From contig WPIO01000047.1 of the NCBI GenBank assembly GCA_009760855.2, positions 2,744,001 to 2,808,000 on the forward strand: 64,000 nucleotides of DNA. Reading direction: 5' to 3'. Within the stretch, counting starts at the first letter, position 1, and the number at the start of each line of letters is the position of its first letter. The notes below the pieces were generated by a model that worked only from the letters and a program-made list of their open reading frames with translations, had not been told where the DNA came from and ran no database searches. This document shows, one piece after another, positions 42,101-45,100 of the stretch. The position numbers and the translations under genes are program-made. This DNA comes from Cristatella mucedo. Taxonomy: Eukaryota; Bryozoa; Phylactolaemata; Cristatellidae.

Positions 42101-45100
42101 TGGAGTGGATGAATGTAGAGATTTTTACGAAAAGGTGGGCACTCAACCTAACCGGTAAGCAAACTGCTTCCTAAAAGGAATGCAAACTGTCTACAGCAGC
42201 AGCTACGACTGCCCGACCCTACCATAGACTCCTGAAGACTGCAGTTACAAAGCTCATAGACAACGTAAACGAAGCAGAATTAAAAATATTGCCACAAACA
42301 TCAGTTTCAAGAAGGAAGCAATAAAAATTACCGCACATTTATTACACGGATGTTTGCCTGGTGGGTGTTCTCTAATCGTTTTCTGGTGCCTGCAGGGACA
42401 GCAAATCTCCAGTTCTAGAAACCTGGGTCTTTGGAAACAGAGGCCATCTGACAAATAACCCCAGCAAAATACTCATACAAAGCTGGTTTGCCCGAGTGGT
42501 TAAGGTGCTCGCCCAGCTTGTAGGACATTTCCCCCCTGGAGGTTTCCCTCCCAGGACACTAACCCTCAAGACATTTCCCCCTGGTGGACCCTAGGACATT
42601 CCCCACAGATCCCCCCACCCGGAGACCTAGGACATTTCCCCTGTGTTGATGAATGTATAACTGTATAACTAAGAATACAGATATGTGTGCGTTTGTGTGT
42701 GTGTACATATATATATATATATATATATATATATATATATATATATATATATATATATATATATATATATATATATATATATATATATATATATATATAT
42801 ATATATATATACATGATCAAATGAAGCTCAAACTCTATTAAATTAAAATCAATTCAGTATAATTAGAAGAATGAATGGATTGGAAGGATGGTTTCTAATG
42901 GAGCAAGCGGCAGCGGATGCAGTGACTGCAGCGAGCTATACAGTTCAGTCCCGCGGGACCAAACTCCCTGCGGAAGCTCGGCCCCGCTCGACGCTGCCAG
43001 GCACTTGTTCATACCTGCCAAAGTGGGCGTGTTACAGCATGCTGCACGTTCCTGAAAATGAGTGCTAAGCCTCAGAGGTCTACTGAGTATAACTCGAGCT
43101 CAGGAGATCTAGTTACGCCCTAATTAGTATACACTAATTGAAGCTCGGAATACTAGCAAGAGTGGATTTAGGCAGTGGAGGCACAGCCTGCCCTAAATTC
43201 TAAAACCTAAACCCTAAACCCTAAAACCACAAACACTAAACCCTAAAAACCCTAAATGCTAAACCCTAACTACTAAAAACCCTAAATTCTAAACCCTAAG
43301 CCATAAAACCCTAAACCCTAAAAATGCCAAACCCTACACTAAACTCTAAACCCTAAAACCCTAAACCCTAAGCCCCAAACTCTAAACCCTAATATCTAAA
43401 CCCTAAAAGCCCTTAACCCTAAAACCCTAAACACTAAACCCTAAACCATATACTGGTGGGACTGTCCTACCCCAGGGGGGAATGTCCCAGGGGGGGAATG
43501 TCTGTACCCTGCTCACCCCGATCACGGTCTGACCGAGGTCGTGGACTCGAGCCCATGGCATATATGAAGAGCCTGAGTAGAGATTGATTCTCCTAGGGCA
43601 CTTTACAATGAATTAAATCTATATTTATTTATTTACAAAGTGAATTCACCAATGAATTTAAAGCATGATGGACAGATGACGAATCAAGCAAAATATTTGC
43701 AATGATTATAATATATGCAGGGATATGCGGACTTCAAGCTTAATGTGTGCTAGATAGCCCCACAGCGACTCTTCATGGCTCACCGAACAAGCTTCCCCAG
43801 AATCAACCCAGCCGAAGCACTAACTTAAAAACAGGGAGCTTAAGTCACCAGAAGTAATTCCCTGTCAGTTGATCCACAGAAAGAACACGGATGACCACAG
43901 AAAGCAAAGAGTATGAACATAGCCTGCGACTTTCACGAAAAGCTCAGTGCATAGACCAGTGTGAGCACTAATAACTCGTAGACGACTCGTCAAGCGATTC
44001 AACCTCCATTCAACCTACTCTGCCATCTTAATTTGATTCTTAGTAGTGCCTTTACAGGTAAGATACGACATACACAAATGTGGTAAACACTAAAGAGCAA
44101 GGAACAGTAAACAATCGACAAGCCATGCGATAGAGCATGTTTACATGAATATCTTTTACTTATAACTAGATGCTAAGAGTGGCCAGAACTTTGGCTAAGT
44201 GCAAACGCGTGCAACAGCCTAAGGGACATGTAGATGATCAAGACAGGTAAGGTAGGTTAAAGCAGCCCAGTGACCAACATTTAAGAAGAAACTTGTGCTC
44301 ATATGCCGGTTGGTGGCAGCAATAGAGCCAACAGACAAGAACAGCAGCCACGGCAGACAGTGCTACCTAGTGGAATGGCCAGCTTGCGAGTGAGATCAAA
44401 AAGTTCTGCCGTGCCGCCACAAAGCGGGTGAATGAACGTGCCATGGCCGATTCTTTCAGGTGCAAGCTTCAAAATTTCGGCAGTTTCATCCCAGTGTCCA
44501 GCGACCTGCAAGCATCAGAACCGGTGACCGTAGGCATAGAAACTATAGCAATTTAAAAATTAGGCAATGAGATCTGCTATAAGTCAAACGACTGAACCGG
44601 GAAGTCAGAGGCAGGACCATACAAATTCTACGTAGGATGCAAATGAATTCGCTAAAAGCCGAATAATCAACAGTTCTTGGTTGCCTTGCAGCCACTTAGC
44701 CCAGTAAAAATGGCAATGCTCACCTCGGCAGCATGAACGGCTAGCTTGAGTCCTAAGTTTCGTGCATGTTGCAGAACAGGAATGAAGTCACGAGCATCAT
44801 TGACCTACATAGGCCAGTAGAGATCAACTTACAATAATTAATAATTATACTGATTGCCAGCAAATGGGATGAAGCACAGACAGTGGCAGGACAACGAGCT
44901 CACTGCTCCATCTCCGCTCAGGTCAACACCGACAACGAGTCCTTTGGTCTCGGCGACCAGCTCACTTGCGAGGCGAACAGTGTCCATAGCATCGTCTATA
45001 CTGCCTCGCCTGTCGATGGAGATCACCAGGCGGACGACGATTGGATATGTGCTCGAAATACATGATGCCACAGGCAGCAAGCCACCAGCTGCCTTGCACG

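Follow-up and report, generated by a model that had tools for sequence, protein, structure and literature searches.

Results

The insertion site and its surroundings

The window analysed here is a 64-kb stretch of the Cristatella mucedo genome (G000:C419:2744001-2808000), and comparisons were made against the whole assembly of 572 Mb in 688 contigs. On the minus strand of the window, the open reading frame 44838-45257 matches the PDB entry 8qch (E 1e-18), and it scores 23.1 bits against the Pfam A_deaminase model, which is under the 27-bit cut-off. Further pieces near 44302-44514, 33168 and 56125 contain motif strings that we take to be adenosine-deaminase-like. Together, such pieces span the window from 33168 to 56125 on the minus strand, with introns of several kilobases. 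Judged from these translations, the region appears to hold an adenosine-deaminase-like gene, a reading under which the insert described below would sit in an intron. The window also contains a LINE reverse transcriptase at 37582-38085 on the plus strand (RVT_1, E 1.7e-18), with similar frames visible by eye elsewhere, and its LINE reverse transcriptases and SINEs look animal-like.

The insert itself is 996 bp long (42514-43509, plus strand) and is flanked by TGCTCGCC (42506-42513) and TGCTCACC (43510-43517), the left and right copies of a target site duplication (TSD) which agree at 7 of 8 bases, the sole mismatch falling at a CpG. The duplication may be 9 bp rather than 8, because a C comes next on both sides. 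A sequence-only reading of the window had proposed that the insert is nested exactly in a SINE, and this is borne out: once the insert and one TSD copy are deleted, the flanks align with the minus-strand SINE at 6256-6122 at 80% identity and with no gap where they meet. Of the interrupted SINE, 42481-42513 is the left part, as far as it can be aligned to 6256-6122, and 43518-43616, from the same alignment, the right part, both on the plus strand. When the joined empty sites of 35 copies of the family described below were compared with other sequences in hand, eight were bridged by another repeat copy, the window site being one of them. Three family copies (L002, L023 and L040) are inserted in the same SINE type, their joined sites aligning to the same SINE copies.

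Anatomy of the window copy

The 5′ terminal block (42516-42645, plus strand) contains inward-facing GGACATTTCCCC units that match the motif at 10 to 12 of 12 positions (42523, 42569, 42594 and 42630) or, more weakly, at 9 of 12 (42538 and 42554). The 3′ terminal block (43450-43509, minus strand) has its inward units at 43476 and 43492 (10 to 12 of 12) and at 43456 (9 of 12). These nine sites, plus-strand at the 5′ end and minus-strand at the 3′ end, bear out the suggestion that the motifs cluster by both ends in mirrored orientation. Over the whole window the enrichment is only mild (10 motifs with two mismatches allowed, against 4.4 expected, a count reached by 2 of 100 shuffles), and it is the clustering and the mirrored direction that are striking. 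The inverted ends proposed from the sequence stand in part. It is the motif blocks just inside that form the repeat, the outermost 7-10 bases being poor inverted repeats of each other; local alignment of the two blocks of the window copy scores 37, whereas 2000 base shuffles reach at most 29. The two bases CA at 42514-42515 look like an addition peculiar to the window copy, because the consensus 5′ end of the family falls at 42516.

The cargo is as first described, a long (AT)n run (42707-42811, plus strand) in the slot that a dinucleotide tract occupies in other copies, and a CCCTAAA array (43191-43447, plus strand). Between them lies the segment that we call core A (42820-43195, plus strand). 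The array is degenerate, since its repeat copies match each other at 68%. No recognised coding sequence is present in the window copy. All seven Rfam matches inside the insert are below the gathering threshold, and six of them lie on or around the dinucleotide run. The single pattern match on a viral contig (L001) is a GGGGACA-rich repeat and was set aside as unrelated on inspection by eye.

A family with common ends and different interiors

The termini recur elsewhere in the genome with unchanged boundaries, so that the refuting condition named in the sequence-only reading did not come true, and the insert is a copy of a multi-copy nonautonomous DNA transposon with 8-bp target duplications and inward subterminal repeats. 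A search with the 5′ end found 371 candidates and, with 40 of them scored, 41 matches, and core A gave 665 candidates, of which 40 were scored at 76-80% identity in addition to the window copy itself at 100%. Exact 19-mers of the 5′ and 3′ termini occur at 85 and 63 places, the reversed controls at none; all of these counts are lower bounds. Both ends could be located in 45 of the 55 distinct core-bearing loci examined and not in the other 10. The 8-bp duplications are a property of the family: with no shift from the consensus ends, 27 of 45 copies have at least 6 of 8 bases in agreement, against an average of about 0.9 for shuffled partners. In this comparison the TSD counted towards the score by which end pairs were selected, a selection that was not repeated in the shuffles. 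With the right end shifted by up to two bases (no shuffle control), at least 6 of 8 agree in 35 of 45 copies, at least 7 in 26 and all 8 in 13. Perfect duplications flank elements as different as one of 379 bp (locus L070, GTCAAATA) and one of 2161 bp (locus L073, TGCTCAGT).

The consensus ends from 38 copies read GGTTGTAGGACATTTCCCCCTGGACGT... at the 5′ side and, read inward, GGGGTACGGACATTTCCCCCTGGACGT... at the 3′ side. A copy has on average 4.8 inward units within its 5′-most 150 bases and 4.2 within its 3′-most 130; units pointing outward average 0.12 and 0.05 at the respective ends, and 0.02 units lie between the two ends (41 copies, four of the 45 having been excluded for more than three mismatches at the 5′ end). 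Unit spacing peaks at 13-16, and the 5′ and 3′ blocks of family copies align locally with 74% identity over a median of 72.5 columns. The 5′ block is followed by a dinucleotide tract, mostly AT in the copies read but also AC, AG or GT, and then by the core. Core A runs into the CCCTAAA array, whereas core B, seen by eye in L049, L050, L056 and L066, is GGC-rich and has no such array. At least two different interiors, core A with the array and core B without, are therefore carried under common ends. The non-CpG divergence of the window copy from the core consensus (0.056) equals the median of 43 cores, which range from 0.025 to 0.161. All 12 exact 5′/3′ 19-mer pairs under 16 kb lie within 900 bp; there is none at 1-16 kb, and one at 16.6 kb joins different elements.

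Two features of individual copies deserve mention. L004, L049 and L086 contain by eye a similar insert of about 700 bp, starting near TCGTCCCTCGTT and lying in or beside the dinucleotide tract, which is either one old insertion or an element with a preference for such tracts. In L071, two family 5′ ends stand head to head with a few bases between them.

Superfamily affiliation

The window insert is most likely an old copy of a nonautonomous family of Mutator-like elements (MULEs). We place the family there because its layout, its 8-bp TSDs, its partly similar terminal bases and the plan of the mosquito element Muta1 (see Discussion) agree. The genome has 59 matches to the MULE domain. Fifteen MULE loci (L073-L087) fall into the groups M1 (seven loci), M2 (three), M3 (three) and M4 (two); among the frames tested, those of M1 and M2 contain MULE and FLYWCH domains and those of M4 a MULE domain. 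M1 and M2 ends carry blocks of inward units. Both ends were found in 8 of the 10 M1 and M2 loci (L075 and L083 lack one end), and 7 of those 8 have a TSD matching at 7-8 of 8 bases at the best of four offsets, L079 reaching 3 of 8. M3 (L080, L082 and L084) has no recognisable terminal inverted repeat (TIR). The family thus shares with the MULEs of its own genome (L073-L079, L081, L083 and L085-L087) inward repeated terminal units and, with M1 and M2, 8-bp TSDs. It differs from them in the units, which are GGACAAAATGTCCC in M1, GGACAATTCGGAGCAG in M2 or others again, and in that they have MULE frames inside.

The terminal bases resemble those of two of the four MULE groups, at up to 13 of 16 positions. 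Anchored at the TSD, the family 5′ end matches M2 at 13 of 16 bases (3 of 100,000 base shuffles) and the 3′ end matches M4 at 12 of 16 (5 of 100,000) and M2 at 11 of 16 (22 of 100,000), while the M1 ends resemble it poorly (9 and 5 of 16; 546 and 36,710 of 100,000); these pairings were chosen with the ends already seen, the shuffles are uncorrected for that choice, and M4 was compared at its 3′ end only. The family has 8-9 bp TSDs, long TIRs with subterminal tandem units and termini related to those of transposase-bearing MULEs. Among the 59 MULE matches and 218 terminus entries, both of them partial lists, no MULE frame lies within an element bounded by GGTTGTAGGACATTTCCCC and GGGGTACGGACATTTCCCC. 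The closest MULE-terminus pair is 490 bp apart (contig C69), the next 16 kb. The C69 MULE was rejected as an autonomous partner: locus L073 shows it to be a separate M2 MULE, with broken frames and its own 8-bp duplication (7 of 8), nested in the 3′ terminal block of the 2161-bp core-B element.

TSD length by itself does not decide the matter, since 8 bp fits hAT, MULE, Zisupton and others. Zisupton, for example, is reported to make 8-bp TSDs (PMC12730594). It is nonetheless unlikely that the family belongs to another superfamily with such duplications (P, Merlin, Zisupton/KDZ or Sola1), given that both its ends and its layout resemble MULEs of the same genome. The transposase searches covered hAT, MULE and KDZ; the KDZ domain gave no match in this genome and likewise none in 14 control genomes.

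The insert had originally been called hAT-like, and that label we have abandoned. Both 8-bp TSDs and subterminal repeats occur in hAT elements too, and hAT transposases are abundant here (138 domain matches, of which 55 share a single score). Two hAT copies (L088 and L089) are 99.6% identical over 3063 bp, and the large family to which they belong has therefore probably been active recently. However, hAT ends begin CA/TA-G. The consensus ends of our family, GGTTGTAGG and GGGGTACGG, start with GG, and in two copies of the large hAT family one end is TAGGGCTGTACCGG. The two fetched hAT copies contain no GGACATTTCCCC at 11 or more of 12 positions. Nor are hAT domains associated with family termini beyond chance: comparison of the 138 matches with the 218 terminus entries, which cover part of the family and include some elements twice, gave one pair within 10 kb where about one is expected, and in that pair (contig C85) the hAT is situated outside the complete core-A copy of which the terminus is part. 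On end sequences and on this absence of association we reject the hAT assignment as very improbable; the family illustrates that an 8-bp duplication by itself does not make a hAT.

The CCCTAAA array and the host telomere

The first interpretation also changes in that the window copy did not capture the array on its own; core-A copies in general carry it. CCCTAAA units are present in every one of the 45 measured copies, a set selected for core A, each with at least two CCCTAA units, and the array is for this reason a feature of the family. Among lags 5 to 11, 7 comes out strongest in 43 of 45 copies (the exceptions are L014 and L053), the commonest spacing is 7, and CCCTAAA is the commonest heptamer ending in TAAA, at 498 occurrences against 72 for the next. 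The array spans 58 to 827 bases with a median of 259, a few of these spans being stretched by stray units, and it is almost gone in some copies, with two units left in L053 and L069. Its orientation is constant, since there is no TTTAGGG on the element plus strand in 35 copies.

Despite the animal-like LINE reverse transcriptases and SINEs of the window, the host telomere repeat is itself probably TTTAGGG, to judge from the assembly, because (TTAGGG)5 is absent from the 572 Mb and TTTAGGG arrays stand at the edges of contigs C185 and C43. (TTTAGGG)4 has 3712 matches (overlapping counts; reversed control 0), some at contig edges and part of them within core-A elements, for example on contig C32, where the array is nearly pure. 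A perfect 196-bp stretch of TTTAGGG type has 1907 matches in the genome, and the first 100 listed are all on C185 (158,591 bp), from 10,002 to 12,851. There, the 101 bases before 10,001 are N, either a gap or a stretch withheld, and CCCTAAA repeats start at once (L094), oriented as at a left chromosome end. On C43, which also holds a family match, TTTAGGG repeats cover the last ~440 bases (L091 and L095), oriented as at a right chromosome end, and are degenerate at their edges. Interstitial arrays of TTTAGGG type exist outside the family too (contig C24). With the host telomere apparently TTTAGGG, the family would therefore scatter repeats of host-telomere type.

How the array arose can be read in more than one way. 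Within the MULE reading, slippage inside the element may have amplified the array from a short CCCTAAA-like seed, with no telomere DNA captured; this is a serious contender, though we put it at somewhat less than an even chance. The degenerate state of the window array, the variation in array length among copies and the presence of a second expandable tract, the dinucleotide one, all fit it; against it, no unit is commoner than the very heptamer that apparently makes up the host telomere. That break repair or telomerase placed the whole insert as interstitial telomere DNA, with an incidental duplication, is suggested by the likeness to vertebrate TERC-ITS, where telomere-type arrays are also reported inside inserts that interrupt repeats (PMC8537989), and is rejected as next to impossible by the existence of a family of hundreds of copies with both ends, core and array in common. 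Break repair or telomerase could still have supplied the array in the ancestor.

Discussion

The family is best described as a MULE derivative carrying telomere-type cargo. One of the known systems closest to it is Muta1, a MULE of Aedes aegypti. Muta1 is reported to have 8- or 9-bp TSDs without clear preference, a 145-bp TIR in which nine 12-bp repeats, separated by 3-4 bp, accompany a 10-bp terminal motif, and nonautonomous derivatives with common ends and varied interiors (PMC5225508). The two share TSD length, a TIR of short tandem repeats and ends that derivatives with varied interiors have in common. They differ in number of units (nine 12-bp repeats in Muta1, about four to five units of 12-13 bp per end here), in sequence, in the interior, occupied in our family by a telomere-type array together with a dinucleotide tract, and in that an autonomous partner is known for Muta1, whereas none was found for this family among 59 MULE matches. 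Literature searches for the motif letters or for telomere-array transposons returned no title describing this family.

Under the MULE assignment, excision of the element and its reinsertion with a stagger of 8-9 bp would be the work of a FLYWCH/MULE transposase, either one from this genome or an extinct relative, bound to the GGACATTTCCCC units of the two ends. The core-A ancestor would already have had its CCCTAAA array, which was copied along and whose length slippage and mutation may later have altered. One such copy would have landed in the SINE of the window, within what appears to be an intron of the adenosine-deaminase-like gene.

Interstitial telomeric repeats are usually put down to chromosome fusion, break repair or telomerase. 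Break repair is also named as a source in work on vertebrate TERC-ITS, arrays of the telomere unit at internal sites, some of which interrupt repeats; its authors suggest that transposons are not involved in their spread (PMC8537989). The C. mucedo case differs from that description in that the array is carried by a transposon family. The surprise is a transposon spreading arrays of host-telomere type, a cut-and-paste family with interstitial telomeric repeats as fixed internal cargo. We tentatively propose, as a possibility rather than a probability, that a nonautonomous MULE lineage took in the host TTTAGGG repeat and has scattered oriented arrays through the chromosome arms by hundreds of transpositions. 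Some of the scattered family arrays are nearly pure still. If the proposal is true, these arrays could serve telomere-binding proteins as docking sites or seed the healing of broken chromosomes. The family copies are datable, orientation-marked loci for measuring array decay, expansion and any binding of telomere proteins, and core B provides an array-free control for such measurements.
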